51,436 bases of DNA from an uncultured Anaeromyxobacter sp. (GTDB lineage Bacteria; Myxococcota; Myxococcia; Myxococcales; Anaeromyxobacteraceae), in the NCBI GenBank assembly GCA_903904005.1, contig CAIVAR010000007.1:1-51436 (forward strand), in the 5' to 3' direction. The notes beneath the pieces are model-generated. The model saw only the letters and a list, made by a program, of their open reading frames with translations, did no database searches and had not been told where the DNA came from. The translations under genes and the position numbers were made by a program. Below, one piece after another: positions 15,351 through 47,741 of this stretch. Within the stretch, counting starts at the first letter, position 1. Each line of letters opens with the position of its first letter.

Positions 15351-15362
15351 GGTGCCGGACGT
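15351..15362 (+). repeat. dispersed repeat GGTGCCGGACGT, exact copy
   Basis: Exact 12-mer; its last base is also the last base of the stop codon of the membrane protein gene ending at 15362. Confidence 0.9.
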
Positions 15363-16192
15363 CAGAGGCCGGAGGTGAACACCCAGCGTTCGCCGCGCCG
15401 CTCCAGCCGGTAGCGGGCCCGCTGGGCGCCCACACCCCGGTGCCGGACGTCGGGCTCCTCGTAGTCCTCCCCCACCTCGGCCGAATCCCGCTCGACCCGG
15501 ATCTGCCATCCCTTCACCCGCAGGTCCGGCCGGGGCTCGGTGAGCTCCTTCCGGAGGCGGCTCTCCAGTGCCGCCCGGTCGGTCGTGCCGTCCCGGTAGT
15601 CGGGGGCTGCGAGCGAGAGCACCGTGGCGGGGTCCCCGCCCCGCGCGGCGTCGAGCCGGCGGAACAAGGTCCGTAGAACGGCCCGGAGGCGCGCGAACTG
15701 GTCGCCCTCGGCGCACCAGAGGGCGATCTTGCAGGGCTTCATGTGGAACTGCTCGCGGCCGATGTACGAGACCGTGGCGGCCTGGTCCCGCCATACCGCC
15801 CTCCCCTCGGCGTCCAGCACCGCGACGACGGTGGCCCGATTCCCCTCCACGTCCGGCACCACGTCTGCGTAGCGGACCGGGACGAGTTCCAGCGTCCCGC
15901 CCGCCTTCCATCCGTAGATGTCCTCGAGGTGCGCCCGCCCCTGCGCGGCCAGGGCCGTCCGCACCTGGCTCTCCGGGCTCTGCAGGGTCGCAGTGGACCC
16001 GGCGTCGAGCAATTCGGCGCGCCAGAACCAGGCGCCGGCGGCCACGGCCGAGGCGACGAGGAAGGGGGCTAGGTAGGGAGCACCGGAGCGAAAGCGGACC
16101 CGCCGCCTCCGCCCGGGCAGACTACCAGGGGGTCTTCCAGAGCTCGGGGTGCTCGGGCTGGGACCGGAGTTCGACAAGGAGCTTCTCGGCAT
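15362..16192 (-). CDS. membrane-anchored protein with C-terminal NTF2/SnoaL-like region, function unknown
   Basis: The reading frame encodes up to 276 residues. A single transmembrane segment (PYLAPFLVASAVAAGAWFW, about residues 39-57 from the ATG) is followed by about 85 residues of mixed sequence and then a segment of NTF2-like character (RLRAVLRTLFRRLDAARGG...). The start is uncertain: ATG 16192 and TTG 16177 lie inside the upstream bamD-like gene, and the only start after that gene's stop is a rare CTG at 16120. Two exact copies of the 12-bp repeat lie inside, one read as VVPDV (15849) and one as PDVRHR (15439) in different frames, and a third overlaps the stop. I cannot assign a function. 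Confidence 0.6.
   Translation of the reverse strand: MPRSSLSNSGPSPSTPSSGRPPGSLPGRRRRVRFRSGAPYLAPFLVASAVAAGAWFWRAELLDAGSTATLQSPESQVRTALAAQGRAHLEDIYGWKAGGTLELVPVRYADVVPDVEGNRATVVAVLDAEGRAVWRDQAATVSYIGREQFHMKPCKIALWCAEGDQFARLRAVLRTLFRRLDAARGGDPATVLSLAAPDYRDGTTDRAALESRLRKELTEPRPDLRVKGWQIRVERDSAEVGEDYEEPDVRHRGVGAQRARYRLERRGERWVFTSGL
15439..15450 (+). repeat. dispersed repeat GGTGCCGGACGT, exact copy
   Basis: Inside the membrane protein gene, read antisense to the gene so that it encodes D-V-R-H-R. Confidence 0.9.
15849..15860 (-). repeat. dispersed repeat, exact copy on the minus strand
   Basis: Inside the same membrane protein gene as the copy at 15439 but in the opposite orientation; here it encodes V-P-D-V. 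Confidence 0.9.
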
Positions 16193-16953: not shown

Positions 16954-17457
16954 TCAGCGGTCTTCCGCGTCGTCCACGTACACCCCGAGGGCGGCGGAGA
17001 CGGCCCGGCCGGAGAACCCCCGCCCCAGGAGGAACCGGGAAAGTCGTGATTTTTCGCGGTCGTCCAGGGCGGCCGGGGAGCCCCTGGCTCGCCGTTCGGC
17101 CAACGTCCGGCACCGGGCCACCTCGTCGTCCCCGAGCGCCTCCTGGACGGCGCGACGGGCCGCCTCGCGAGGAATCCCAGCGGCGACGAGCCTTCGCTCC
17201 GCCATCCGCGGACCGAGCCGTCCCGGCGCCACGAGTCCGGCCGCCCGGTCCCGGGCGAAGGCGGCGTCGTCGAGGTACCGGAGGTCCTTCAGCCAGGCGA
17301 CGACCGCCTCCACCTCGTCGGCGAACCCCGCCTGGACGAGCCGCTCCCTCAGCTGCGCCTCCGTGCGGGGGCGAGCAGCGAGCAGCCGGAGCGCCCTGGC
17401 TCGGGCGCTAGAAGCGCTCGATCTGGAAGTCGTCGTCGGGAGGCGCGGCGGGCGCAT
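16954..17457 (-). CDS. recX: regulatory protein RecX
   Basis: RecX binds RecA filaments and usually limits their growth. The 167-residue protein is a series of three-helix repeats with the family patterns RTEAQLRERLVQAGF, VVAWLKDLRYLDDAAFARDRA and GPRMAERRLVAAGIPREAAR. ATG 17457 lies inside the 3' end of pilT, a 50-bp overlap; its first 20 residues are low complexity and the core starts near residue 22. recA itself is not in the window. An exact copy of the 12-bp repeat (17103-17114) falls in the gene, in the frame read as C-R-T. Confidence 0.88.
   Translation of the reverse strand: MRPPRLPTTTSRSSASSARARALRLLAARPRTEAQLRERLVQAGFADEVEAVVAWLKDLRYLDDAAFARDRAAGLVAPGRLGPRMAERRLVAAGIPREAARRAVQEALGDDEVARCRTLAERRARGSPAALDDREKSRLSRFLLGRGFSGRAVSAALGVYVDDAEDR
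17103..17114 (-). repeat. dispersed repeat, exact copy on the minus strand
   Basis: Inside recX, in the third possible reading frame (encodes R-C-R-T-L), which shows the site is not conserved for one peptide. Confidence 0.9.
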
Positions 17458-18777: not shown

Positions 18778-18789
18778 GGTGCCGGACGT
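18778..18789 (+). repeat. dispersed repeat GGTGCCGGACGT, exact copy
   Basis: Lies in the 200-bp gap between pilT and rpsI, preceded by a partial copy (GGTGCCCGGCC, 18767-18777). I see no gene in this gap. Confidence 0.9.
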
Positions 18790-19848: not shown

Positions 19849-19860
19849 GGTGCCGGACGT
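19849..19860 (+). repeat. dispersed repeat GGTGCCGGACGT, exact copy
   Basis: Intergenic, 17 bp beyond the stop codon of the barrel gene ending at 19878 and upstream of the rplM promoter. Confidence 0.9.
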
Positions 19861-19877: not shown

Positions 19878-20573
19878 CTACGGGAGCCGATAGCCGAGGA
19901 AGAGCTGCGTGGTGAAGGCGAAGTTGGTGTTCGTTCCGCCCGAAATGCCCTGGTAGGAGGAATAGGCGTCGATGGCCGCGCCGAAGCGGGTGTTGAGACC
20001 CACCGAGAGGTTGGGCGCGGGGTGGTACTCGACGTAGGGACCGACCGCCGGGCCGAAGATGAACTGCGGGGAGAAGTGCCCGGTGACGATGAGGGTCATG
20101 TTGAGGTCGAGGCCAACGCCGATCTCGAGGTTGGGCTGGACTGGGAAGCCCATCACGATGCCAACCGGGAACTGGAAGCCAAACTGGGCGCTGCTCATCG
20201 TGTAGAGCTTCAGGCCCGGATCCACGTGGAGGACCAGCTTGAAGTCCCGGTTCTCGAGCACCTGGAACCGCAGGGGCGCGTAGAACGACAGCCCGAACTG
20301 GCTGTTGGTGGTGCCCTCGTACCCGTAGAGCAGGCCAAACCTGAGGCCGATGTCGGACGAAGCAGACGTTCCGAATGTGTACCCGAACGTGGTGCTGGGC
20401 CAGCCGGTCTGGACGTCGATCACGGGGCGGCCCGAGACGGTCTCGGTTCCGACGACGCTCCAGCCGGTGAGGCCTGGACGGCCGGCGGCATCGGACTGGG
20501 CCAGTGCGATGACCGGGGTAGTTGCAGCGAAAAGGGCGATGGCGGCTACGGTGGCGCGAATCCGGTTCGTCAT
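19878..20573 (-). CDS. exported small outer-membrane beta-barrel-like protein, function unknown
   Basis: The 231-residue protein starts at ATG 20573 with a strong AAGGAGG 9 nt upstream and has a clear signal peptide (TVAAIALFAATTPVIALAQ). The mature part is a succession of short amphipathic strands rich in Gly, Phe and Tyr (FGYTFGTSASSDIGLRFG, FGLSFYAPLRF, FGFQFPVGIVMG) ending in FTTQLFLGYRLP, whose last residues look like a barrel-terminal strand. I do not recognise a named family. An open frame upstream of the chosen start, to 20669, has no signal and is not used. Confidence 0.75.
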   Translation of the reverse strand: MTNRIRATVAAIALFAATTPVIALAQSDAAGRPGLTGWSVVGTETVSGRPVIDVQTGWPSTTFGYTFGTSASSDIGLRFGLLYGYEGTTNSQFGLSFYAPLRFQVLENRDFKLVLHVDPGLKLYTMSSAQFGFQFPVGIVMGFPVQPNLEIGVGLDLNMTLIVTGHFSPQFIFGPAVGPYVEYHPAPNLSVGLNTRFGAAIDAYSSYQGISGGTNTNFAFTTQLFLGYRLP

Positions 20574-20713
20574 GGGCTCTACCTCCTTCGGGTGCTCGCG
20601 TCTGACGGCGTCCTGAACGAGAAGGCCGCGACGACGTGGGACGAACCCTTTATCGGGCGACGACACCATGCGTCAAGGGCGTTTGTCCCTTGCTTCGGGG
20701 ACTCGTTTCTCTC

Positions 20714-22792
20714 TCAGCGACGTCCAGTCATGCGCGCGCGGAGCGCCTGAAGAACCTCGGCGGACCGCGTCGAGGCCGCGGCGGCCGACTCTCCGCTCGC
20801 GGGGTCGTGCCGGACGTGGGCGCCCGGCGGCAGGTCCTCGAGGAACCTGCTCGGCGTCCGCGGCTCGATACGACCGCGCCTCGTCCGCGCCGACGCTCTC
20901 GTGACCCAGAGCACCTCACGGGCCCGAGTGATTCCGACGTAAGCGAGCCGCCGCTCCTCCTCGAGGTCCCGCGCCTCGCCCTGGATTCCAGATACCGGCA
21001 GCAGGTCCTCCTCGACTCCGATGAGAAACACGACCGGAAACTCGAGCCCCTTCGCGGAGTGGAGTGTCATGAGCGTCACCCCGTCCGCGTCCTCCGGCTC
21101 CTCGTCGCGAGAGTCGAGGGCAAGTCGATGGAGGAAGCTCCCGAGGGTCGACCGCGGGTCGCGCCGTTCATGCCACTCGAGGGAGCGGAGGAGCGCATCG
21201 ACCGACTCGGCCTTTCGCGTCCCTGCCTCGGGCGACGCGACGGTCTTCCGGAACCAACCCCGGAGGTCGAGGTCCTCGAACATGGCCCGCGCCGGCTCGG
21301 CGATCCGTCCGGCGCCGAACCGGCTCCGGAACCGGTCCAGCTGGTCGGCGAACTGGCCCATCTTTTCGGGCGCCCCCCTCGGAATGTCCGGCACCTGGTC
21401 AGCGAGCTTCAGCGCAGCGGAGATAGCCATCCGGTTCCCGGACGCCCAGTTGCCGAGCCGCTCCATGGCCACGTCGCCGATTCCCCGAGGAGGAACGTCG
21501 ACGATTCTCGAAAGGGAGACGTCGTCTTCCGGGAACGCGCAGGCCTTGAGCCAGCCCACCACGTCACGGACCTCCGCTCGGTCGAAAAACGCCGGCCCCC
21601 CCCGCACCTTGTGGGGGATCCCGACCTCCCGGAGCGCCTCCTCGAGCGGCTGGCTCTGGGCATTGAGCCGGTAGAGGACTGCGAAATCCGACGGAGCCCT
21701 TCCCTCGGCGAGTCCCCGCGCCACCTCGCCCGCCACGAATCGAGCCTCCTCCTGCTCGTCGGGTAGCGCCACGAGGCGAACCGGATCTCCCGGATCGGCT
21801 TCCGTCCACAGCCGTTTCGGTCGGCGGTCGGCCGACCGGGCGATGACGCCGTTCGCGCAGTCGAGGATCCGCGCGGTGGACCGGTAGTTCTGCTCCAGCC
21901 GGATCACCTGCGCGCCCGGGAAGCTCCGCTCGAACTGCCGGATGTTCCGGACGTCGGCGCCGCGCCACCCGTAGATCGCCTGGTCATCGTCCCCGACTGC
22001 GCACAGGCTTCGCCCGCTCCAGTCGGGCGAGCGGGTTCTCGACGTGCAGAGGATTTCGAGCAGTTCCAGCTGGATCCGGTTCGTGTCCTGGTACTCGTCC
22101 ACCAGCACGTGCCGAAATTGCTCCTGGTACTTCTTGCGCATCGCACGATCCCCGGACAGCAGGGCCACGGGACGGACGAGCAGATCGTCGAAGTCGAGGG
22201 AGCGCTGCGCCCGGAGCGCCTGCTCGTACCGGGGAAGGATCTCCGTGGCGATGACCTCGTAGTCATCGTCCGGCACCGAGCCTGGCACCGAGCCGGCCGC
22301 GCCCGAGCCGGCCGATCCCTTCACCTTCCGCCTGGGCGCTCCTGCAGCCTCGTTCTTCCGACGGGAGATCACGGCGAGGAGGCGGCGAACGTCGAACCGC
22401 CTGGAGTCCATCTGAACGTCCCGGAGGCTCCGCTTCAGCAGGCTGGCCTGGTCCCCCGCGTCGCAGATCGAAAACCACTTCGGAAGGCCGGCGGCCAGGT
22501 GCTCCTGCCTCAGGAACCAGAGGCCGAACCCGTGGAACGTCGCGATGTGACACCCGGCACCGGCGGCCTTCGAAAGGCCCTTCACCCGGTCCTTCATCTC
22601 GACCGCGGCCTTGTTCGTGAAGGTCACGGCCAGGATCTCGCCCGGGTCGGCGCCCTGCTCGACCAGCCAGGCGATCCGGTGCGCGATGACACGGGTCTTT
22701 CCCGAGCCGGCTCCGGCCAGGACGAGGGCGGGCCCCTCCTCGACCGTGACGGCCAGTCGCTGCGGTGGGTTCAGGCGGGACAGATCGAGCAC
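20714..22792 (-). CDS. ATP-dependent DNA helicase, UvrD/Rep superfamily I
   Basis: This 3'-5' helicase family acts in repair and replication restart. The 692-residue protein starts with LNPPQRLAVTVEEGPALVLAGAGSGKT (Q motif and Walker A, Lys32, quoted in part), and has FDDLL, VLVDEYQDTN (Walker B), LCAVGDDDQAIYGWRGA, LEQNYRST, GLEFPVVFLIGVEEDLLP and ERRLAYVGITRA in order. GTG start at 22792 with AAGAGG upstream. Between motifs Ia and II there is a low-complexity insert (KGSAGSGAAGSVPGSVPD) made partly of near-copies of the 12-bp repeat, and two more near-copies fall at 21384 and 20806. Rep, UvrD or PcrA cannot be separated here. Confidence 0.92.
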   Translation of the reverse strand: MLDLSRLNPPQRLAVTVEEGPALVLAGAGSGKTRVIAHRIAWLVEQGADPGEILAVTFTNKAAVEMKDRVKGLSKAAGAGCHIATFHGFGLWFLRQEHLAAGLPKWFSICDAGDQASLLKRSLRDVQMDSRRFDVRRLLAVISRRKNEAAGAPRRKVKGSAGSGAAGSVPGSVPDDDYEVIATEILPRYEQALRAQRSLDFDDLLVRPVALLSGDRAMRKKYQEQFRHVLVDEYQDTNRIQLELLEILCTSRTRSPDWSGRSLCAVGDDDQAIYGWRGADVRNIRQFERSFPGAQVIRLEQNYRSTARILDCANGVIARSADRRPKRLWTEADPGDPVRLVALPDEQEEARFVAGEVARGLAEGRAPSDFAVLYRLNAQSQPLEEALREVGIPHKVRGGPAFFDRAEVRDVVGWLKACAFPEDDVSLSRIVDVPPRGIGDVAMERLGNWASGNRMAISAALKLADQVPDIPRGAPEKMGQFADQLDRFRSRFGAGRIAEPARAMFEDLDLRGWFRKTVASPEAGTRKAESVDALLRSLEWHERRDPRSTLGSFLHRLALDSRDEEPEDADGVTLMTLHSAKGLEFPVVFLIGVEEDLLPVSGIQGEARDLEEERRLAYVGITRAREVLWVTRASARTRRGRIEPRTPSRFLEDLPPGAHVRHDPASGESAAAASTRSAEVLQALRARMTGRR
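20806..20817 (+). repeat. dispersed repeat, one mismatch (CGTGCCGGACGT)
   Basis: Near the 3' end of the helicase gene, in a flexible C-terminal region. Confidence 0.65.
21384..21395 (-). repeat. dispersed repeat, one mismatch (GGTGCCGGACAT)
   Basis: Inside the helicase gene, read as V-P-D-I. Confidence 0.6.
22266..22277 (-). repeat. dispersed repeat, one mismatch (GGTGCCGGACGA)
   Basis: In the low-complexity insert of the helicase, followed by a further partial unit (GGCACCGAG). Confidence 0.6.
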
Positions 22793-22881
22793 GGGGCGTG
22801 CCTCTTGCCACGCTCCGGCCGGGTCTTCAAGCCCTTGACATGTCCTCGATTCTCCGCGACAGGAAGGCGCGCCGACCTAGA

Positions 22882-22893
22882 ATGTCCGGCACC
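22882..22893 (-). repeat. dispersed repeat, one mismatch (GGTGCCGGACAT)
   Basis: In the leader of the hydroxylase gene; it overlaps a possible -10 hexamer TAGAAT (22878-22883). Confidence 0.65.
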
Positions 22894-22926
22894 GGGTTCA
22901 CCCGGCACCCTCGAGGAGATGTCCCC

Positions 22927-23586
22927 ATGTTCTGGCTCGTTCCCCGGCCCCCCGGCCATCACGCCCCGCAGAACGGAAGCCCGCGGATGTTCAGGGTGGA
23001 CTGGATCGAGAAGTACCTCTCGCGGGTCAGGCCCTGGCACGTGCTCCTCGTCTGGGTGCCGGTGGTGGCGTACCTGATCTACAGGGGGCTCCAGGTCCCG
23101 AGCATCTCCAAGGGCGCATTCGTGGGCGCCCTGGCGGGCGGACTCGTCTTCTGGACCTTGCTCGAGTACGTGCTGCACCGGTGGGTGTTCCACTTCACGC
23201 CCAGCCCGAACTCCGAACTCTCCCAGGACGTCCACTTCCTCATCCATGGCGTCCACCACGACTGGCCGCACGACCCCGACCGTCTGGTGATGCCGCCCGT
23301 CATGTCGATCCTGCTCGCGGTCGTCCTCGGCTACCCGATCTTCCTCGTCGTCGGGGCGCGCTACTTCGACCCCTTCTTCGCCGGGCTCGTGGTCGGCTAC
23401 CTCTGGTACGACATGACCCACTACGCCGTTCATCACGTGAAGCCTCGAACCGAGGCCGGCGCCAGACTGCGGAAGCACCACTACCTGCATCACTTCAAGA
23501 CGCCGGAAGCGCGGTACGGGGTCTCGACGCCGCTCTGGGACGTGGTGTTCGGTACCCTTCCCCGGGACGATCGCGCCGCGCCGTAG
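22927..23586 (+). CDS. fatty acid hydroxylase-superfamily membrane protein (di-iron)
   Basis: The 219-residue integral membrane protein carries the histidine clusters of the fatty acid hydroxylase superfamily (FA2H/sterol desaturase type): HRWVFH (His84, His89), HFLIHGVHH (His103, 107, 110, 111), HYAVHH (His165, 169, 170) and HHYLHH (His184, 185, 188, 189). Four hydrophobic helices surround them. These enzymes use a di-iron centre and O2 to hydroxylate acyl chains or related lipids. ATG 22927 follows GAGGAG; a second ATG at 22987 (MFRVDWIEKY) is possible. Its closeness to a ceramide-type operon suggests a sphingolipid hydroxylase, which is inference. Confidence 0.85.
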   Translation: MFWLVPRPPGHHAPQNGSPRMFRVDWIEKYLSRVRPWHVLLVWVPVVAYLIYRGLQVPSISKGAFVGALAGGLVFWTLLEYVLHRWVFHFTPSPNSELSQDVHFLIHGVHHDWPHDPDRLVMPPVMSILLAVVLGYPIFLVVGARYFDPFFAGLVVGYLWYDMTHYAVHHVKPRTEAGARLRKHHYLHHFKTPEARYGVSTPLWDVVFGTLPRDDRAAP

Positions 23587-23603
23587 GCGTCATCCCCTCC
23601 CCC

Positions 23604-23615
23604 GGTGCCGGACGT
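23604..23615 (+). repeat. dispersed repeat GGTGCCGGACGT, exact copy beside the RAYT gene
   Basis: Sits in the 68-bp gap between the hydroxylase stop (23586) and the RAYT start (23655), 39 bp before the start codon. Confidence 0.9.
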
Positions 23616-23654
23616 TGAGGTCTTCTCGGCCCGCCGCTTGCTTGGCGGGGCCTC

Positions 23655-24323
23655 GTGCCTCGCTTCCCACGCTCCCGCCTCGTCGGCCACGGAACCGTCC
23701 ACCACTGCTTCTGGCGGAGCCACAACAGGTCCTCCGTCTTCGACTCCGACGAGGCCCGAAGAAAATTCCTGGGCCTTCTCGCGAAGTACAAGGATCGGTA
23801 CGGCATCGAGGTCCGAAGCTACTGCCTCATGTCGACTCATCCCCACGTGGTTTGCCGGGCGACGCGCGGCCAGATTCCGTTCAGTGCGTTCTGGAAGGTG
23901 GTCAACCAGTGCTTCGCGCGCTGGTCCAATCGGCGGACCGGCGGCCGCGGCCAGGTCGTGATGGAACGCCTCGGATCCCCCAGGGTCCACAGCGGGGGGC
24001 GGCACGAACTCGAGGTGATGTTCTACGGCGACATGAATCCGGTCCGGGCCCAGATGGTCCCGGATCCGGGGGACTGGCCTTGGTCCAGCCACCGCCACTA
24101 CGCGTTCGGGGTGCCCGACCCGCTCGTCACCGATTCCCCGGCCTACCTCGCGCTGGGGAGCACGACCGTGGCTCGCCGGATCGCGTACCTTCGCCTGCTC
24201 AGCCGGAGGTTCGCGCGCCGGGTCCTGCGCCATCGTCCCGACTTCGTACGTCGCCCATTCTTCGGGCCTTCTCGCTGGATCGCTGCCGCGATGGCCGAAC
24301 TGGAGGGGCTGCCCAGCGGATAG
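23655..24323 (+). mobile_element. REP-associated tyrosine transposase (RAYT, Y1_Tnp / HUH family)
   Basis: The 222-residue protein matches the Y1 transposase fold of TnpA-REP proteins. It has an opening HGTVHHCFWRSHNR strand, SDEARRKFLGLLAKYKDRYGIEV, the metal-binding HUH motif STHPHVV (His62, His64; the usual form is MPNHFH), and the helix YGDMNPVRAQMV with the presumed catalytic Tyr124, followed by WPWSSHRHY. All key residues are present, so it may be active. RAYTs are single-copy domesticated relatives of IS200/IS605 transposases linked to dispersed REP hairpins. GTG start at 23655; no flanking inverted repeats seen. It converges on the ceramide-type operon with a 9-bp gap. Confidence 0.88.
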
Positions 24324-24332
24324 CGCGCTCGA

Positions 24333-25325
24333 TCAAACCAACCCGCGCTCCCGGAACCACCGGACCGAATCCCGCATCCCCTCGGCAAGCGACACGCGCG
24401 GCACCCATTCCAGCTCGCGGCGCGCCTTGTCCGCCGAGCAGGTCCATGCCGCCTCTCGAATCTCCATCATCTTGTCGAGGGAAAGGATGGCCGGGCGGCC
24501 CGTCATCCGTGCGGCAGCGGAGGAGGCTCCCGCGGCGATCCAGCTCACGAACTCGGGCACGGGCACCACGGCGCCACGCTTGCCGAGCGCCGCCATTGCT
24601 CCCGCGGCGAGCGCCTCCCACGTGTAGTCCACGCCATCGGCTGCGAAGTAGACGCCGGCGGGCCCGGCCTCGTCGACTCGGGCGCCGCGGCGGGCGACGT
24701 CGATGATCAGGGCGACCAGGTCGTCGACATGGATCAGGCTGTAGTGCTTCTTGCCAAGGCCCGACTTGGCGACCACGCCCAACTTCGCCATCCGGAAAAG
24801 CGCCGGCAGGAACTCCTTGTCCCGCGCCCCGTAGACGATCGGGGGCCGGATGATCGAAGCGTCCAGCCTCGATGCGAACGAGCGGAGCGCGTCCTCCGCA
24901 GCGAGCTTGCTCTGTCCGTACAGGCTCACCGGTGCCGGACGATCGGTCTCGACACGCGGGCGCCCAGGTGACGAGGGCCCCGCCGCCGCCAGGGACGACA
25001 CGAGTACGAACTTCGCCCCGCCGGTCCGCGCCGCGGTCTCCGCGAGGGAGCGGGTCCCCGCTGCATTGACGGCGAAGAGCTCCTCGCGTGTCAGCGCCTT
25101 GACGAGCCCCGCAAGGTGGACCACGACGTCGACGTCCGGCACCGCGTCGAGGAGCGAGCCCGGGTCGGACACGTCGCCTCGCACCAGCGCCGCGCCCATC
25201 CCCTCGAGTTCCCGGGCACGACCGGGGTCCCTAACCAGCGCCCGCACCTCGTCACCCCGGGCGAGAAGGCGCTCGACGAGCGTCGTCCCGATGAATCCGG
25301 TCGCCCCGGTGACGAGCCAGCGCAC
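24333..25325 (-). CDS. cerR: NAD(P)-dependent epimerase/dehydrogenase, candidate ceramide reductase
   Basis: The 330-residue extended short-chain dehydrogenase has the GATGFIG nucleotide motif (residues 7-13), VVHLAG near 68, a Ser in LVSSLAAAG and the catalytic Tyr136/Lys140 pair in YGQSK. In Caulobacter an enzyme of this type (CerR) reduces the 3-keto group of oxidised ceramide. Here it follows a ceramide synthase-like and an SPT-like gene, so the same role is likely; hopanoid or sugar epimerases are alternatives. GTG 25325 lies 3 nt after the upstream stop. An exact 12-bp repeat encodes V-P-D-V at residues 62-65, and a near-copy lies at 24931. Confidence 0.75.
   Translation of the reverse strand: MRWLVTGATGFIGTTLVERLLARGDEVRALVRDPGRARELEGMGAALVRGDVSDPGSLLDAVPDVDVVVHLAGLVKALTREELFAVNAAGTRSLAETAARTGGAKFVLVSSLAAAGPSSPGRPRVETDRPAPVSLYGQSKLAAEDALRSFASRLDASIIRPPIVYGARDKEFLPALFRMAKLGVVAKSGLGKKHYSLIHVDDLVALIIDVARRGARVDEAGPAGVYFAADGVDYTWEALAAGAMAALGKRGAVVPVPEFVSWIAAGASSAAARMTGRPAILSLDKMMEIREAAWTCSADKARRELEWVPRVSLAEGMRDSVRWFRERGLV
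24931..24942 (+). repeat. dispersed repeat, one mismatch (GGTGCCGGACGA)
   Basis: Inside the cerR-like gene, antisense to it. Confidence 0.6.
25132..25143 (-). repeat. dispersed repeat, exact copy on the minus strand
   Basis: Inside the cerR-like gene, encoding V-P-D-V in the normally aligned part of the Rossmann fold, with no evident insertion. Confidence 0.9.
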
Positions 25326-25328
25326 GGC

Positions 25329-26510
25329 CTATTCGACCGGCATCTCGTAGAGACGGTACGTCTTCGACCGCCTCGCACCCGCGGCTTCGATGGCCTTGTT
25401 GATGAGGGTGTTGTCCTCGAGGGTCCAGCTCACCTCGCCTCCCTCGTAGCCCGCCTGGTCCGCGCGGCGGATGGTCTCGACGATGAGAACCGCGTCAATT
25501 CCGCGTCGACGCCAGCCCTCCTTGATGCCGAGCGCCATGAGCCGGACCTTGGTGATCCGCTTCTGGAACCAGAGCAGCTTCGCGAGACCGATCGGAAGGC
25601 CGAAGGTCGTCAGCTGTCCTCCCACCTTCTTGAAGGCCTGGTTGATGTCCGGCACCGTCAAGGAGAAGGCGATCGGCTCCCCGTGCGCCTCGGCGATGAG
25701 CGCCAGCTCCGGCACCACGAGTTGCTTGAGATCCTTCGCCAACTTGTCGAACTCGGCGTCGGTCATGGGGACGAATCCCCAGTTCTTTTCCCAGGCCGAG
25801 TTGTAGACGGCCTTGATCCGGACGACCTCGGCCTCGAAGTTCGCGACGTCGAGGGGGCGGACCGTGATGCCCTCGTGCGCCCGGATCTTGTCGGCGACGC
25901 GGACGAAGCGCTCGGGCGCCGGCACCTTGGCGGACCGCTCGAACCCGTAGAGGTCCTTCGCCTTTCGGAACCCGCAGGCCTCGACGAGGTCGGCGTAGTA
26001 GGGCGGGTTGTACGGCATCATCACGTAGGGCGACGAGTCGAACCCGTCGACGAGCAGCCCGCACTCCTGGTTCGTCGAGAGATTCATCGGGCCGATGATC
26101 TGGATGAGCCCGCGCCACCGTGCCCAGTTCTTCGCCGCCGCGACGAGCGCCGCGGCGACACCCGGGTCATCGATGCACTCGAAGAGCCCGAAATACGCGA
26201 CCTTGCAGCCATGGAACGCGTTGTAGTTCCGGTCCTCGACCGCCGCGATGCGCCCCACCAGCTTCCCGTCCCGGCGGGCCAGGAAGAGGGCGACCTCGGC
26301 GTGGCGGAAGAACGGGTTCTTCGAGGAGTCCAGGAACTCGTGTCGCTCCATGACGAGCGGAGGGACCCAGAACGGGTCGTCCCGGTAGAGCTCGAAGGGG
26401 AGCCGGATGAACCGGTCCTTCTCGATCCCCGACATCACGAGGGAAACCTCGACGTCCTTGGCGGGATGGGCGGCCTCGGTGACGTCCGGCACGACGACGG
26501 GTCGGTTCAT
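25329..26510 (-). CDS. bcerS: GNAT-like N-acyltransferase, candidate bacterial ceramide synthase
   Basis: The 393-residue protein begins at ATG 26510 and runs in frame to TAG at 25329. Recognisable parts are IRLPFELYRDDPFWVPPL near residue 35, FFRHAEVALFLARRDGKLVGRIAAV, IIGPMNLSTNQECGLLVDGF, PYVMMPYNPPYYADLVEACGF and a C-terminal GNAT-like half ending with LMALGIKEGWRRRGIDAVLI. This layout fits the uncharacterised acyltransferases shown in Caulobacter to N-acylate 3-ketosphinganine (bCerS). Placement between SPT-like and CerR-like genes strengthens the call. The first 15 residues contain VVVPDVTEA from a near-copy of the repeat and are probably an added leader. Confidence 0.75.
   Translation of the reverse strand: MNRPVVVPDVTEAAHPAKDVEVSLVMSGIEKDRFIRLPFELYRDDPFWVPPLVMERHEFLDSSKNPFFRHAEVALFLARRDGKLVGRIAAVEDRNYNAFHGCKVAYFGLFECIDDPGVAAALVAAAKNWARWRGLIQIIGPMNLSTNQECGLLVDGFDSSPYVMMPYNPPYYADLVEACGFRKAKDLYGFERSAKVPAPERFVRVADKIRAHEGITVRPLDVANFEAEVVRIKAVYNSAWEKNWGFVPMTDAEFDKLAKDLKQLVVPELALIAEAHGEPIAFSLTVPDINQAFKKVGGQLTTFGLPIGLAKLLWFQKRITKVRLMALGIKEGWRRRGIDAVLIVETIRRADQAGYEGGEVSWTLEDNTLINKAIEAAGARRSKTYRLYEMPVE
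25645..25656 (-). repeat. dispersed repeat, one mismatch (GGTGCCGGACAT)
   Basis: Inside the bcerS-like gene, read T-V-P-D-I. Confidence 0.6.
26482..26493 (-). repeat. dispersed repeat, one mismatch (CGTGCCGGACGT)
   Basis: Within the first ten codons of the bcerS-like gene, read V-P-D-V. Confidence 0.65.
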
Positions 26511-26539
26511 GGCGGGTTCCTGGCGTGTGGGGGAACGCG

Positions 26540-28078
26540 TCAGGCGTCCCGCTGGCTGTTGCTGCTGTTCTGCTGTCGTCGAGCCATGAAGTTCATGCCG
26601 GCGGAGAGCAGCATCGTGGGGAGCTGCCGCCGCTTCTCCCAGAGCTTCACCGGAAGCTCCTTCAACTGTTTCACGTCGTCCGGCCCTGCGTTGATGGCCC
26701 GCCAGGTGATCATCTCGGCGGCGTTGGAAAGGCGGCGGGACCAGGGCTCGTCGGCCTGGGTGAGGACGTCGAGGATCTCGAGGCGCGCCCCGCCGTCCTG
26801 GGCACCGGTGGCGGTCGTGGCCCCCTCGTGGGACGAGTAGAAGCCGGTCACGCCGGGGCGGGCCATCTTCACCTCGACGCGGGTGTGGGGGCGCTCGGCC
26901 GGGATGATGCCGAGGTCGCGACCCGCCTTCTGGAACATCTCGAGGGCCCGGTCGATCTGGTCGTCGGTGTGCGTGGCCATGAAGACGGTCCGCACGAGTT
27001 CGTGCTCGACGGCCGGCTTCACCACCGGGCTCGCGAAGAGCCCCAGGTCGGTGAGCTTCCTCCAGAACTTGAAGGTCAGGGCCTGATCCCCGATGACCAC
27101 CGGCACCACGGGGGAGACGGACGGCTGGGTGTCGAACCCCAACCCCCGGAGTTCCCGGTGCACCCGCTCGGAGATGTCCCAGAGCCGCTCGCGCCGCTCC
27201 GGCTCCTGCTCGATGATCTCGAGGGCCTTGAGCGCCGCCGCCGCCGCGGGCGGGGTCATCGACGCGCTGAACACCAGCGCGCGGGCCTTGTGCTTGATCC
27301 AGTTGATCACGTCGGCCGGCCCGGCGATGACGCCGCCGATCGACGCGAGCGACTTGGAGAACGTCGTCATGATGAGGTCGACGTCGTCGTGGACGCCGAA
27401 GTGCTCCCCGGTGCCCGTGCCGTTCGGCCCCATGACGCCGAACCCGTGGGCCTCGTCGACCATGAGCCGGGCGCCGTACTTCTTCTTCAGTTCCGCGATG
27501 GCGGGCAGGTTCGCGAGATCGCCCTCCATGGAGTAGACGCCGTCGACGACGATGAGCTTCCCGGCTTCGGGGTTGGAGTTGGCGAGCAGCCGCTCCAGGT
27601 CCTCCATGTTGTTGTGGCGGAAGCGCTTGGTCTCCCCGTACGCCGCCTGCATGCCCTCGACGAGCGACGCGTGGACCATGCGGTCGGCGAAGATCAGGTC
27701 GTGCCGGAGGACGAGGGAGGAGATGGTCCCCAGGTTGGTCCCGAAGCCCGTGGAAAAGCACACGGCGGCTTCCTTCCCGAGGAACTTCGCGAGCCGGCGA
27801 TCGAGCTCGTCGTGGAGGGTCATCGTGCCGTTCAGGACGCGGGACCCGCAGGTCGACGCACCCCACTGGCGCGCCGCGTCGGCCGCCGCCTCCATCACGC
27901 GCGGGTCGTTGGCGAGCCCAAGGTAGTTGTTCGAGCAAGCCATGATGAGGCGCTTGCCGTCGACGACCACCTCGGTCCCGTCGGTCTCCTGGATGACCCG
28001 GTAGTACGGGTAATGACCGGCAAGCTTGAGGACCTGCGCGTCCTTCCAGTTGGCACACTTGTCAAAAAGATCAGCCAT
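26540..28078 (-). CDS. spt: alpha-oxoamine synthase, candidate serine palmitoyltransferase, with C-terminal extension
   Basis: The enzyme would condense serine with an acyl thioester to 3-ketosphinganine, the first step of sphingolipid synthesis. The 512-residue protein has the alpha-oxoamine synthase fold: SNNYLGLANDP (residues 49-59), GFGTNLG near 111, PLP-stacking His136, DEAHGFG (Asp208, His211) and Schiff-base Lys242 in TTFSKSLAS. KBL/glycine C-acetyltransferase is the main alternative, but the downstream genes favour SPT. About 100 residues beyond residue 410 (from AERPHTRVEVK to the end) have no counterpart in standard 400-420-residue members. ATG at 28078. Confidence 0.8.
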   Translation of the reverse strand: MADLFDKCANWKDAQVLKLAGHYPYYRVIQETDGTEVVVDGKRLIMACSNNYLGLANDPRVMEAAADAARQWGASTCGSRVLNGTMTLHDELDRRLAKFLGKEAAVCFSTGFGTNLGTISSLVLRHDLIFADRMVHASLVEGMQAAYGETKRFRHNNMEDLERLLANSNPEAGKLIVVDGVYSMEGDLANLPAIAELKKKYGARLMVDEAHGFGVMGPNGTGTGEHFGVHDDVDLIMTTFSKSLASIGGVIAGPADVINWIKHKARALVFSASMTPPAAAAALKALEIIEQEPERRERLWDISERVHRELRGLGFDTQPSVSPVVPVVIGDQALTFKFWRKLTDLGLFASPVVKPAVEHELVRTVFMATHTDDQIDRALEMFQKAGRDLGIIPAERPHTRVEVKMARPGVTGFYSSHEGATTATGAQDGGARLEILDVLTQADEPWSRRLSNAAEMITWRAINAGPDDVKQLKELPVKLWEKRRQLPTMLLSAGMNFMARRQQNSSNSQRDA

Positions 28079-28157
28079 TTGCCCTCGTGGTCCCTCGGGA
28101 AAAGCCGGGTTCCCCCGGGCTTACCTACCGGCCGCAGGTGAGGCGAGTCAAGGCCCC

Positions 28158-28228
28158 GGTGCCAGGCCCCGGTGCCGGACGTGGTGCCACGTGGTGGTGC
28201 CGGACGTGGCGGACGTGGTGCCGGACGT
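28158..28228 (+). repeat. cluster of three exact and several partial copies of the dispersed repeat
   Basis: Exact 12-mers at 28171-28182, 28196-28207 and 28217-28228, all in the same orientation, with fragments (GGTGCCAGG, GGTGCCACGT, GGCGGACGT) between them. It occupies the 224-bp gap between the divergent spt-like and dodecin genes, where promoters for both would be expected. Confidence 0.9.
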
Positions 28229-28302
28229 CAAACGGGAGGTTACATCCCCTGGGTCCGGTTCAACTCCCCAACCCCGCCGAAAATCCCGAAAGGAAGCAAC
28301 CC

Positions 28303-28506
28303 TTGGCCACCTACAAGAAGATCGAGGTCGTCGGAACCTCCCCGAAGAGCGTCGCCGACGCGATCAAGTCCGCCGTCGCCAGCGCCAGCAAGTCGGTCCG
28401 GAACGTCAGCTGGTTCGAGGTCGCAGAGATCCGCGGGGCCGTGAAGGGCGGCGAGGTTTCCGAGTTCCAGGTGACGGTGCGGATCGGCTTCAAGGTCGAG
28501 AGCTAA
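28303..28506 (+). CDS. dodecin family flavin-binding protein
   Basis: Dodecins are small dodecameric flavin stores or buffers. The 67-residue sequence fits the family over its whole length: YKKIEVVGTSPKSVADAIKSA, the flavin-stacking Trp37 in NVSWFEVAEIRGAV, and the closing EFQVTVRIGFKVE strand. The start is TTG at 28303, with GGAAG 6 nt before it; longer frames upstream translate the repeat cluster and are rejected. It is divergent from the spt-like gene and convergent with bacteriohemerythrin. Confidence 0.93.
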   Translation: MATYKKIEVVGTSPKSVADAIKSAVASASKSVRNVSWFEVAEIRGAVKGGEVSEFQVTVRIGFKVES

Positions 28507-28539
28507 CCGCCCTCGCAGGCCGCGCGGCGACCCGGCGCG

Positions 28540-28965
28540 TCACGGACCGTCGAGGTCGCCGCTCGCCACCTTCGTGGCGAGAAAGCGCCCGAGTTCCATG
28601 TCGGACCTGCTGATGTGCTGCCGCAGCCATTCCGCGATCCAGTTGTTGATCCGGATGCCCGCGAGCACGTTCGGCCCCTTCTCGCGGAATTCCTGGGTCA
28701 TGTGGTCGTAGTCGCGGATGAAGCGCTCATGTTCCGCCTTGTGCCGGACGTAGTCGGGGTAGGCGCTGCGAAGCATCCAGCGCTCCTCGGCCCCGAAGTG
28801 CTTCACGACGTACTGGCTCAGGAATTCCAGGAGTCGTTCGATGTCAGGCGAACTTCCTCGAGCGACACCCTCCACGAGTCGCTCGATGCGGACGAACAGT
28901 TCCTGGTGCTGGTGGTCGATCTCGGGGACGCCGATGGCAAGAGCCGGAGTCCACGGAATGGCCAT
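28540..28965 (-). CDS. bacteriohemerythrin
   Basis: This O2-binding protein has a non-heme di-iron site and serves as an oxygen store or sensor in microaerophiles. The 141-residue four-helix bundle has every ligand in place: His20 (DHQHQELF), His56 and Glu60 (HFGAEE), His75 and His79 (HKAEH), His117 and Asp122 (HISRSD). ATG 28965 with GGAGGGAG upstream. A near-copy of the dispersed repeat sits at 28740-28751 in the gene. Confidence 0.96.
   Translation of the reverse strand: MAIPWTPALAIGVPEIDHQHQELFVRIERLVEGVARGSSPDIERLLEFLSQYVVKHFGAEERWMLRSAYPDYVRHKAEHERFIRDYDHMTQEFREKGPNVLAGIRINNWIAEWLRQHISRSDMELGRFLATKVASGDLDGP
28740..28751 (+). repeat. dispersed repeat, one mismatch (TGTGCCGGACGT)
   Basis: Inside the bacteriohemerythrin gene between the second pair of iron ligands (Y-V-R-H-K), so here the motif overlaps a functional histidine codon. 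Confidence 0.65.
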
Positions 28966-29109
28966 GATGTTCGCTCCCTCCAGGGTCGTCGGCGCCGGGC
29001 GCCGCCAGCCATCGGGTTGATGGGCCGAGGGAAGGGCTCTAGCAAAGGGAAATGTCCGGCGCAGGCCTGATTCGGGCCGTGCCTCGCAGATTCCCCATCT
29101 TCAACATCT

Positions 29110-30177
29110 TCAACGTCCGGCACCGACCTCGGCACCCGCCTCGAACGCGGCAGCGAGGAACGCGTCGTTCTCCCGTGGAGTCCCGACCGAGACGCGCAGG
29201 CATCCCTCCAGGCCAGGAAGGTGGTCCTGCCGCCGGACGAGGATCCCGCGCGCGAGAAGGGAGCGCCACGCGGCCTCGGCGTCCGGGGTTCGGACCAGGA
29301 AGAAGTTGGCCTGGCTCGGGTGCGGGCGCCAGGTCGGGTGGCGGGCGAGGCCCGCGATCACGCGGTCCCTTTCGGTCGCGAGGCCCGAGGCCACCTCCTC
29401 GGCTCGGCCGGGGGACTCGAGAACGGTCTCGATCACCGCGGCGGTGTGCACCGGAACGTCGAAGGGCGGGAGCATCGCCTGGACCTTGGCCGCCACGTCC
29501 GGCACCGCGAGGAGAAACCCGGCTCGAACCCCGCCGAGGCCAAATGCCTTGGAGAAGGTGCGCAGCACCACGACATTCGGGTTCGCCCTGGCCAGGGGCC
29601 GGAGGTCGGTGCGGGAGAACTGGCAGTAGGCCTCGTCGATAGCGAGGAGCCAGCCACGCCTCCTGGCTGCCTCGGCGACCCGCTCCACGTCCGGCACCGG
29701 GAAGACCGCCCCCGTCGGCGCATGGGGCGACGCAACGAAGACCACCCCGGCCTCCCCCTGGTCCATCTCCCGGACCAGGCCGTCCACCGGGAGGCCAAAA
29801 TCCGGACCGAGCCGCACGGCGCGGTACGGCGTCCCGGTAACCCGCGCAGCTCCCTCGTAGAAGGCGAAGGACGGCGACGTGTCGAGCACCCGCCTCGCAG
29901 CCATCGCCAGCGCCAGTACCAGGAAGTTGGACCCGGGAGCGACGACGATCCCGTCGGCGGGCCATTCGAGGAACCGGGAGAGCAGCGATCGGACTCCCTC
30001 CGCGTGCATGTCCGGGTATCGGTTCCACGGTGCGTCGCGCATCCGGTCGAGCGCGCGATTCTTGAGATCTTCCGGCAGGTCCCAGGGGCTTTCGTTCTGG
30101 TCCAGCTTGATTGCCGCTTCTACCTTCCTGTAGGGGTAGGCACCCAGTCCAGAAAGGTGCGGCTTGAAGGCGTCCAT
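29110..30177 (-). CDS. hisC: histidinol-phosphate aminotransferase
   Basis: HisC converts imidazole-acetol phosphate to histidinol phosphate in histidine synthesis. The 355-residue fold-type I PLP enzyme has KLDQNESPW (residues 24-32), ASPHAPTGAVF at 149-159, DEAYCQF with Asp181 and Tyr184, and Schiff-base Lys210 in RTFSKAFGLGG. The neighbouring genes are not histidine genes, so a broader aromatic specificity is possible. Two exact 12-bp repeats encode V-P-D-V at residues 161-164 and about 227-230. Its ATG (30177-30175) overlaps the start codon of the divergent M23 peptidase. Confidence 0.9.
   Translation of the reverse strand: MDAFKPHLSGLGAYPYRKVEAAIKLDQNESPWDLPEDLKNRALDRMRDAPWNRYPDMHAEGVRSLLSRFLEWPADGIVVAPGSNFLVLALAMAARRVLDTSPSFAFYEGAARVTGTPYRAVRLGPDFGLPVDGLVREMDQGEAGVVFVASPHAPTGAVFPVPDVERVAEAARRRGWLLAIDEAYCQFSRTDLRPLARANPNVVVLRTFSKAFGLGGVRAGFLLAVPDVAAKVQAMLPPFDVPVHTAAVIETVLESPGRAEEVASGLATERDRVIAGLARHPTWRPHPSQANFFLVRTPDAEAAWRSLLARGILVRRQDHLPGLEGCLRVSVGTPRENDAFLAAAFEAGAEVGAGR
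29113..29124 (-). repeat. dispersed repeat, exact copy on the minus strand
   Basis: Immediately at the 3' end of hisC, overlapping its stop region. Confidence 0.9.
29495..29506 (-). repeat. dispersed repeat, exact copy on the minus strand
   Basis: Inside hisC, encoding V-P-D-V after the PLP-lysine domain. Confidence 0.9.
29687..29698 (-). repeat. dispersed repeat, exact copy on the minus strand
   Basis: Inside hisC, encoding V-P-D-V at residues 161-164, just after the NPTG-equivalent loop. Confidence 0.9.
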
Positions 30178-31216
30178 GGCGCGACATTACTTCAGATTCC
30201 TCGCCGTCGCCGCCGTCGCCCTCCTGGCACGGCCCGCCTTCTCCGCCGAGACCCGTCCGCCCCCGGGACCCACCGTCCGCGTCTCGCCCGATCGCGCCCG
30301 GGCCGGCGATGCGCTGCTCGTCAGCCTCGAGGGAGGCGGCGTCTCCTCGCCCTCTTCGCCCTCCTCCACGTCCGGCACCGCGTCCGGCACCGCGTTTTCC
30401 GGCACCGCGTTTTTCCCCGCGCCTCCGACGTCCGGCACCGCGGAAGGCACCGCGGAACCCGCAGCCACGCCCCCGCCCCGCCCCCTCCGCTTCTACCCCA
30501 CCCCCACCGGCGCCCAGGCCATCCTCGCCCTTCCGATCGAGCTCACGTCCGGCACCGTGCGGATCGAGGTCCGCGTCCCCGGTCGCCCCGACCCGCTCGT
30601 CGCCACCGTCACCGTCGTCGACCCGGGCTTCCCCGAGACCCAGCTCTCCGTCGAACCCAAGTTCCTCGCCCCGTCCCCGGAGCAGAAGAAGCGGATGGAG
30701 GAGGACCAGGCCGCCTTCCGCGAAGCCTTCGCCCGCCCCTTCGAGCCCCCCCTCTTCGCCAGCCCCTTCGCCCCTCCCCGCGACGCCCGGGTCACCGGCC
30801 TCTTCGGGGAGCGGCGCGTCTTCAACGGCAAGAAGCAGAGCCAGCACTACGGCACCGACCTCGCCGGCGCGGTCGGCGACCCCATCCTCGCCACCAACGA
30901 CGGCGTCGTGGTCCTGGTCCGCGACTGCTTCGCCTCCGGCAAGAGCATCGCCCTCGCCCACGGCGGCGGCCTCTTCTCCGTCTACTTCCACATGTCGGGC
31001 TTCGACGTCCGCGCTGGCGACCAGGTCCGCCGCGGCCAGCCCATCGGCAAGGTCGGCGCCACCGGCCGCGTCACCGGCCCGCACCTGCACTTCGGGATCA
31101 AGGTGGTCGACCTCTACGTCGACCCCGACTCCGTCTACCGGCTCGCCTTCGCCCCGCCGTCGGCAGCGCCGCCGCCAGGCGCCCCGGCCCCGCCGCCGCC
31201 CACCGCCGCCCCCTGA
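30176..31216 (+). CDS. M23 family metallopeptidase (LytM-type), exported
   Basis: The 346-residue protein has a signal peptide (MARHYFRFLAVAAVALLARPAFSAE), a linker of about 100 residues, a small beta domain (EVRVPGRPDPLVATVTVVD) and a LytM domain with zinc motifs HYGTDLAG and HLHFGI. Such enzymes cleave peptidoglycan cross-bridges or regulate amidases. The linker (residues about 45-85) is an expanded run of the dispersed repeat read as TSGT/ASGT, and a further exact copy encodes LTSGTVR. ATG 30176 overlaps the divergent hisC start; TTG 30164 is an alternative. The C-terminus is Pro/Ala-rich and overlaps the convergent IMPase-family gene by 82 bp. Confidence 0.9.
   Translation: MARHYFRFLAVAAVALLARPAFSAETRPPPGPTVRVSPDRARAGDALLVSLEGGGVSSPSSPSSTSGTASGTAFSGTAFFPAPPTSGTAEGTAEPAATPPPRPLRFYPTPTGAQAILALPIELTSGTVRIEVRVPGRPDPLVATVTVVDPGFPETQLSVEPKFLAPSPEQKKRMEEDQAAFREAFARPFEPPLFASPFAPPRDARVTGLFGERRVFNGKKQSQHYGTDLAGAVGDPILATNDGVVVLVRDCFASGKSIALAHGGGLFSVYFHMSGFDVRAGDQVRRGQPIGKVGATGRVTGPHLHFGIKVVDLYVDPDSVYRLAFAPPSAAPPPGAPAPPPPTAAP
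30368..30439 (-). repeat. expanded run of the dispersed repeat in the M23 linker
   Basis: Exact copies at 30368-30379 and 30428-30439, a one-mismatch copy at 30380-30391 directly abutting the first, a more degenerate one at 30395-30406, and further CGGCACCGCG fragments. Read in the gene's sense it gives repeated T-S-G-T. Confidence 0.9.
30545..30556 (-). repeat. dispersed repeat, exact copy on the minus strand
   Basis: Inside the M23 peptidase gene, encoding T-S-G-T in the beta domain. It is the last copy before a gap of more than 16 kb. Confidence 0.9.
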
Positions 31217-46601: not shown

Positions 46602-47741
46602 GTGGAATCGCCGGCATCACAGCCCTCCCGCCCGGCGCGCAAGCCCCGCTGGCCCGTCGCCCTGGCGGCCAGCGTGGCCTTCCACGCCCTCCTTGGGGTC
46701 GCGCTGTGGCGCGGGTGGCCGGCACCCGCCCCCCTGCCCCGCCGGCCGGCCCCCATCGAGTTCACCCTCGTCCACCTGCCGCCCCTGCCTGCGGCGCCGG
46801 CCGCGCCCTCGGTGCCGGACGTGGAGCCATCGGCGACCCCCCGTGGGACGCCCGGAAGCGCGCCGGAGGCCCGCCAGGTCGCAATTCCATCGGTGCCGGA
46901 CGTGGAGGTTTTCGCGCCCGGCGCCCCCCCGGACGCGCACCCCGACCTCGCCTGGGCCTCGGCCGCCGTCCCCCAGACCGGTCCGCGTCCCGACCTCGCC
47001 GTCCGCCCCCCGGCCGAGGTCGTGGCCTTCTACGCGCCCACCCCACCCACGCCCGAGGGGCGCCTCCAGCGCCTGCTCCGGGAGGACCAGGGGCGCGAGA
47101 AGGTCCGGAGCGGCCTCGCCGACCCCTTCTTCCTCGACTTCGGCCGGTCGATGCTCGCCGCCTGGGAGCCGGAGAAGGTGGTCACCGACCGGGGCTTCTC
47201 CGGCTACCTGAAGCACCTCGGCGTCGCCGTCGTCGACTGGGCCGCCACCTACGCCACCCAGGCGGCCAGCTACGGCCGCTCCGGCTCCCCCTTCGGCCCC
47301 GGCGGCGCCCCGCTCTCCCTGACCGGCCTCACCGCCGTCCCGGAGGGGATCACCACCCGGATCTCCGACCAGATGGCCGGGATGCGGGCCATCGCCGACC
47401 AGTCCCGGACCCGGCACGCGGCGCTCGTCCGGGTCGTCCAGCGGGCCGACGGCCGGCTCGTCTCGGTGGAGATCCTGCGCCCCTCCGACGACTCCTCGGT
47501 CGACGCCCAGGCGCTCCGGGACCTGCGCGAGGCCGCGGCGCGCCTGCCCGCCCCCACCTCGTCGGCGCTCGCCGGCCGGACCCAGGTCGCCTCGGTCTGG
47601 GAGTTCTCCCTCGAGATCTCGATCACGCCGCCGCTGCCGATGATCACGGTGCAGTTCGACGAGGTGCTCGGCCTCGTCGACGCACGCGTGCCGCTCGACC
47701 GGCGGCTCTTCAAGCTCGTCCGGCTCGTCTCGGTCGACTGA
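46602..47741 (+). CDS. TonB-like energy transducer
   Basis: The 379-residue protein has one N-terminal transmembrane helix (WPVALAASVAFHALLGVAL), a long Pro/Ala-rich periplasmic linker and a C-terminal domain in which VVQRADGRLVSVEILRPSDD and SVDAQALRDLREAAARLP follow the TonB C-terminal pattern. It would couple the proton gradient to outer-membrane transport, but no ExbB/ExbD genes are nearby. Two exact 12-bp repeats encode SVPDVE in the linker (46811, 46892). The GTG at 46602 is the best start; upstream frames cover the intergenic region. Confidence 0.7.
   Translation: MESPASQPSRPARKPRWPVALAASVAFHALLGVALWRGWPAPAPLPRRPAPIEFTLVHLPPLPAAPAAPSVPDVEPSATPRGTPGSAPEARQVAIPSVPDVEVFAPGAPPDAHPDLAWASAAVPQTGPRPDLAVRPPAEVVAFYAPTPPTPEGRLQRLLREDQGREKVRSGLADPFFLDFGRSMLAAWEPEKVVTDRGFSGYLKHLGVAVVDWAATYATQAASYGRSGSPFGPGGAPLSLTGLTAVPEGITTRISDQMAGMRAIADQSRTRHAALVRVVQRADGRLVSVEILRPSDDSSVDAQALRDLREAAARLPAPTSSALAGRTQVASVWEFSLEISITPPLPMITVQFDEVLGLVDARVPLDRRLFKLVRLVSVD
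46811..46822 (+). repeat. dispersed repeat GGTGCCGGACGT, exact copy
   Basis: In the linker of the TonB-like protein, read V-P-D-V. Confidence 0.9.
46892..46903 (+). repeat. dispersed repeat GGTGCCGGACGT, exact copy
   Basis: 81 bp after the previous copy, same strand and same reading frame of the TonB-like gene. Confidence 0.9.

Follow-up and report, generated by a model that had tools for sequence, protein, structure and literature searches.

A Y1/HUH, REP-associated-tyrosine-transposase-like (RAYT) gene lies in the window, a stretch of 51,436 nucleotides that forms contig C7 of an Anaeromyxobacteraceae MAG (Myxococcota, 4.56 Mb), and is surrounded by copies of a 12-nt word, GGTGCCGGACGT. 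The association between RAYT and word is close to certain. The explanation we favour, with a probability of about 0.58, is that a TIRYT-like RAYT acts in cis on its recognition word, so that its neighbourhood fills with copies. The word is nearly restricted to about 10 kb on each side of the gene and has taken the place of short pieces of neighbouring genes, which suggests that such enzymes can rewrite nearby DNA instead of spreading repeats genome-wide. Most of the genomes compared below are MAGs with heuristic gene calls, and genome-wide statements are based on pattern searches and on a 160-kb sample of the window genome.

The gene is a 222-aa ORF starting with GTG (23655-24323, + strand). 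One copy of the word (23604-23615, +) ends exactly 39 bp before its start codon, which bears out the earlier note, and the GTGCCGGAC core is conserved there in all four congeneric genomes. The protein matches Pfam Y1_Tnp (PF01797) with an E value of 1.9e-5, which passes the curated cut-off, and is the only Y1_Tnp protein of the window genome. The HUH histidine pair (H62, H64) and the single Tyr (Y124) had been read as intact; together with N128-P129, they are indeed invariant in 22 orthologues. The Tyr motif is Y124-x3-NP, and the HUH motif reads H-P-H in these orthologues, with a proline at the “U” position that falls outside the L/V/I/F/Y/M list of PMC6006769. With its Y1_Tnp domain, HUH pair and Y-x3-NP motif, the protein qualifies, judging by its sequence, as a class-2 RAYT / TnpA-REP protein; its score against the NCBIfam equivalog NF047646 (REP_Tyr_transpos), 42.4 bits, is below the cut-off of 80. 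A TnpA-REP fold is also predicted by the AlphaFold2 model (mean pLDDT 76.9, the C-terminal 39 residues, 184-222, being unreliable), whose top PDB match is 4er8, the E. coli TnpA-REP in complex with its REP hairpin (E 1.6e-6, TM (target) 0.63). By resemblance, the window RAYT appears to be a divergent class-2 RAYT, an H-P-H variant near TIRYT / subclass 2.1, a placement made from motifs and flanking repeats rather than from a tree against the published subclasses. It is found at the same site in 4 of 4 congeneric genomes, between a fatty-acid-hydroxylase-like and an epimerase-like gene, and in this genus it is single-copy, vertically inherited and under purifying selection. The four congeneric copies differ with a dN/dS of about 0.2 (values of 0.08-0.12 were also obtained), from which we conclude that the gene is maintained.

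The window contains 20 exact 12-mers, and 29 words with at most one mismatch, against 0.94 expected from shuffles. Genome-wide, 28 exact copies of GGTGCCGGACGT were found, 20 of them on the 51-kb RAYT contig, where about 0.32 would be expected (Poisson P ~3e-29). At least two of the eight copies found outside (contigs C64 and C151) are the same ordinary coding sequence, so that outside copies really number 7 or fewer. C64 and C151 (G000; L166 1-150 and L167 1-100) are short contigs, with identical 12-mer-bearing coding sequence. Density of the core GTGCCGGAC in the four congeneric genomes decreased with distance from the gene, from 2.5 per kb within 500 bp upstream of the RAYT to ~1.8 per kb up to 2 kb, 1.3-1.4 up to 5 kb, 0.9-1.0 up to 10 kb, and 0.07-0.34 beyond. 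Copies on contig C46 of G002 do not represent spread in trans: C46 is the orthologue of window 42-51 kb, and therefore belongs to the same neighbourhood.

Many of the window copies sit inside genes, on either strand and in several frames, and many of these read VPD (GTG CCG GAC). A codon-usage or compositional artefact, by which this codon string would simply be common in a GC-rich genome, could be thought of, all the more so as a few in-gene copies, for instance in a GNAT-like gene, are probably ancestral protein motifs. Genome-wide counts refute it, and its probability is practically nil: the 9-mer core occurs at 0.025 per kb elsewhere in the same genome (eight stretches, 160 kb), intergenic and other-frame copies are enriched too, and relatives do not have the word at homologous codons.

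Copies on the upstream side of the RAYT comprise two 12-mers at 15351 and 15439 (15351-15450, +; in G002 the first site contains degenerate tag repeats, ggcggtgcc), one in CDS 15362-16192 (15849-15860, −; VPD frame, conserved in three genomes), one in CDS 16954-17457 (17103-17114, −), two intergenic ones (18778-18789 and 19849-19860, both +), and a core copy, GGTGCCGGACAT, near the 5′ end of the fatty-acid-hydroxylase-like gene (22882-22893, −). On the other side, an array of three 12-mers whose copy number varies between species lies between kbl and a hemerythrin-like gene (28171-28228, +), followed by a core copy, TGTGCCGGACGT, in the hemerythrin-like CDS (28740-28751, +). Farther out are two outlying 12-mers in a Pro/Ala-rich ORF (46811-46903, +; the G002 orthologue has a small array, and G003 no core copy in the region), and one ~25 kb from the RAYT (49722-49733, +). 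Orientations are mixed around the window RAYT, and no clean inverted pair flanks the gene.

Three resident genes were compared with their orthologues in relatives that have no RAYT of this group alongside. The UvrD-like helicase gene (20714-22792) carries core copies at 20806, 21384 and 22266 (20806-22277), and the motif was found at 1 of 33 homologous codon positions in 11 relatives. The hisC-like gene (29110-30177) carries 12-mers at 29113, 29495 and 29687 (29113-29698, −), the last two being found at none of 14 positions in seven relatives. Core copies of the NAD-epimerase-like gene, at 24931 (+) and 25132 (−) (24931-25143), are missing from the homologous codons of three relatives. Altogether, seven word sites of the RAYT-bearing genus are absent at 52 of 53 homologous positions. 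At gap-free sites the word replaces the homologous codons with no indel, and the protein is changed, as in VFPVPDVER of the window genome versus LFATGDVER in G006. Some gap-free gains are specific to one species: 30545 in the window, the homologue of 31007 in G002, and that of 31786 in G003. Core copies 25645 and 26482 of the GNAT-like gene (25645-26493, −) are probably at least partly ancestral, because the orthologue in RAYT-less relatives contains a core copy or lies beside one.

Such replacement is a difficulty for a cis-acting RAYT, as known Y1 cleave-and-rejoin chemistry does not obviously give a 9-12-nt replacement of the same length; changing codons without gaps therefore calls for templated conversion or else for selection in favour of the word. 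In a tentative and somewhat unlikely variant, the RAYT, as a domesticated HUH enzyme, would directly overwrite short neighbouring patches, resident codons included, with its recognition word, a cis-acting local rewriting with no repeat insertion. The main rival of the cis-acting RAYT is that the word is a binding site, for a domesticated RAYT or another factor, accumulated by point mutation and selection. Many word sites are shared by all four species, at ~75-80% nucleotide identity, the copies in genes change amino acids whichever way they point and in several frames, as would be expected of a DNA word that is itself favoured, and the single-copy, vertically inherited RAYT under purifying selection fits a domesticated protein. 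We nevertheless consider binding-site selection unlikely, since array-specific 5′ tags, recent changes of copy number and irregular linkers, described below, resemble copying, and since clusters recur around RAYTs at unrelated loci.

Genes at 19878-30177, except kbl, show a divergence of 0.45-0.56 at 4-fold sites between congeneric genomes, compared to about 0.2-0.4 for most other window genes. Local hypermutation near the RAYT was considered and rejected: the raised divergence was not seen around RAYT_a of G006 and G019, and the GC3 of those genes, ~0.86, is ordinary for the window genome.

Array anatomy was analysed on arrays of at least three copies from 15 loci. Agreement at positions −5 to −2 was 0.69-0.86 within arrays and 0.29-0.34 between arrays, and at positions +8 to +11 it was 0.74-0.84 within and 0.31-0.43 between. 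Beyond about −7 to +12 agreement fell to background, and linkers varied in length and sequence. This means that the reiterated unit is about 18-20 nt long; it is made of a 6-nt array-specific tag from the local site, GTGCCGGA, and 4 lineage-specific nucleotides. Different arrays at one locus may have different tags. A hairpin formed by the tag and the 3′ flank was rejected, as folding with DNA parameters was better than that of tag-swapped controls in 12 of 26 arrays, which is no excess. Arrays change fast. At window ~30370, G002 and G003 have one copy, whereas three clustered 12-mer/core copies and a partial one are present in the window genome; this in-gene array (30368, 30380 and 30428, plus 30545; 30368-30556, −), of which one copy is conserved in G002 and G003, expanded in situ at 30368-30439, through small indels, in the window genome only. 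Array sizes are also unequal between G006 and G019. Array growth could result from slippage alone, which weighs against the cis-acting model.

The clusters vary together with the RAYT lineage. The four congeneric genomes all have them at one shared locus; in sister genera, where RAYTs lie elsewhere, the clusters accompany the gene and consist of lineage variants of the word (GTGCCGGACAT, GTGCCGGAGTC), so the proposal that RAYT and 12-mer belong together holds. Around the RAYTs of genera g2 and g5, which occupy unrelated loci, the word reads GTGCCGGACAT; it reads GTGCCGGAGTCA in genus g4, and GTGCCGGAGG in G005 and G022. The window 12-mer is the form taken in its genus by a common core, GTGCCGGA with 4 lineage-specific nucleotides. 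In the complete genome G006, 26 of the 31 copies of its 12-mer GGTGCCGGAGTC are within ~10 kb of its two RAYTs. Relatives without a RAYT had no cluster, only scattered background copies, and their epimerase-GNAT-kbl region contained 1-3 core copies in 25-40 kb. Two observations that would have spoken against the association, RAYT-less genomes with many 12-mers and another repeat family around the window RAYT, were looked for and not found. Three RAYT loci of the group with little or no cluster (G013, G009_C111 and G031_C14, the gene of the last being possibly truncated) do count against the cis-acting model. Just upstream of the G013 RAYT (L055, contig C13), the 5′ end of the gene is partly duplicated, and an array of a tag-like unit, gtactcgg, is found in which the word is degenerate (GGTGACGGACAT).

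Orientation is strict in g2/g5 and g4: upstream copies are on the RAYT strand in 88 of 88 cases and downstream ones on the opposite strand in 27 of 27, so that all 115 scored copies point towards the RAYT. This is not a general rule, as it is false in the window, and the mixed orientations of the window, against strict inversion in sister genera, are a further point against the cis-acting model. Alternatively, the copies might be what is left of the terminal inverted repeats of the RAYT (TIRtron ends, as described in PMC3733652) after repeated short hops, multiplied by ordinary replication slippage. In the sister genera, inverted arrays do flank RAYTs, and these RAYTs are multi-copy, with assemblies breaking inside them. 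Such an origin is nevertheless distinctly unlikely: recurrent hopping is not seen in the window genus, where the RAYT is at the same site in four species, and slippage explains neither the gap-free replacement in genes nor unit boundaries with variable linkers. Several similar RAYT copies are present in G004 and G007, with ~35 bp 5′ and 25 bp 3′ conserved, so the gene is itself a mobile one in those genera. Contig ends fall inside RAYT genes at L096 (G007, C9), L102 (G004, C29) and L103 (G004, C4).

The earlier note had suggested that, if the RAYT handles the 12-mer, this would be a REP system with a very short element. The association stands; the REP identity does not. E. coli TnpA-REP with its REP/REPIN sequences (REPtron; PMC8266576, PMC3116915) shares with the window system the superfamily, the fold, a repeat-flanked gene and a unit of ~20 nt, and TnpA-REP proteins cut single-stranded DNA beside their repeat (PMC8266576). 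However, no conserved GT[AG]G, expected at the foot of the REP stem-loop, was found 5′ of the word, no hairpin signal was detected, in line with the remark that the usual GTAG/GGAG hairpin layout is lacking, and there is no genome-wide population: instead of high-copy intergenic dispersal, 20 of 28 copies are on one 51-kb contig, many of them in genes. The RAYT-word system is therefore not a REP system. The IS200/IS605 elements (IS608, ISDra2) have the same single-domain Y1 HUH transposase fold, but the window RAYT has Y-x3-NP rather than Y-x3-Q and is found as one copy at a conserved site in the genus; neither tnpB nor subterminal hairpins were seen.

TIRYTs are closer. A TIRtron consists of a RAYT-like gene with inverted repeats that carry a GGGGWSAS motif (Di Nocera et al. 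2013, PMC3733652). RAYTs, defined as those TnpA-Y1 proteins that are not of the IS class, are described as occurring in about one species in four, and TnpA-Y1 subclass 2.1 corresponds to group 1 of Bertels (PMC6006769; Quentin et al. 2018). Likeness to TIRYT and subclass 2.1 lies in the RAYT-like Y1 protein, the NP after the Tyr motif and the C-terminal extension, and, in sister genera, in the inverted short motifs flanking the RAYT. Differences are several: TIRYTs have NHxH, whereas the window protein has H-P-H and its word is GTGCCGGA+N4; the window word, GGTGCCGGAC, does not fit GGGGWSAS and merely resembles it; and published TIR families (PMC3733652) are described as genome repeats, whereas the window word is confined to the surroundings of the gene. 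No REP-like sequences were reported for subclass 2.1 in a search of +/−1 kb (PMC6006769), which left the role of such proteins open, while clusters around the window RAYT extend to ~10 kb from the gene and also occupy coding sequence. We did not find clusters confined to RAYT neighbourhoods described in the part of the literature that was covered. A RAYT group related to subclass 2.1 is now tied to a short word by evidence of four independent kinds: confinement, decay with distance, co-variation with the RAYT lineage, and unit-bounded arrays. Substrate, cleavage site and cis action can thereby be tested directly.

The transposases of several insertion sequences prefer to act near their own gene. 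A cis-acting RAYT would similarly work mainly on transiently single-stranded DNA close by, with GTGCCGGA and four lineage-specific bases (CGTG in the window genus) as its putative recognition and cleavage word. It would cleave next to the word, and a unit of ~20 nt, comprising the core with ~6 nt of the local sequence 5′ of it and 4 nt on the 3′ side, would be rejoined or copied, building irregular arrays. Long residence at one locus may seed single copies 10 kb and more away, and copies in genes would be tolerated where the residues VPD, VRH or TSGT do little harm. Processing of single-stranded DNA in cis would account for locality, inverted arrays and unit boundaries. We infer that RAYT catalysis makes the copies, that it prefers cis, and that its chemistry can replace sequence in place. 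In the resident genes, a transposase-linked DNA word overrides protein sequence, a type of local change in the genome that escapes ordinary repeat searches.

At more distant Myxococcota RAYTs the words are different: CAGCGACTCG, GGGGACGGAG, GGGACAGAC and GGGGACACTCG. The last fits the GGGGWSAS motif of TIRYTs (PMC3733652), strict GGGGACAC-type motifs were also found, and GGGGACAC/GGGGACGGAG-type words in general fit or resemble it. In G036, 16 of the 18 genome copies of the word CAGCGACTCGTC are beside the RAYT; at L071/L072 (contig C58, 28576-29007) CAGCGACTCGTC forms a tandem array with 21-bp spacing. The word of G051, CGAGTGTCCC, is spread genome-wide (165 copies), which means that confinement belongs to the RAYT group of the window and not to all RAYTs. 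At 3763-4602 of L132 (G051, contig C190) and on other G051 contigs, the RAYT lies between inverted tandem arrays whose unit, GGGGACACTCGTT, is 13 bp long. On several contigs of this genome, oppositely oriented arrays are also found about 0.7 kb and 7-8 kb apart, possibly corresponding to RAYT-less or larger mobile segments.
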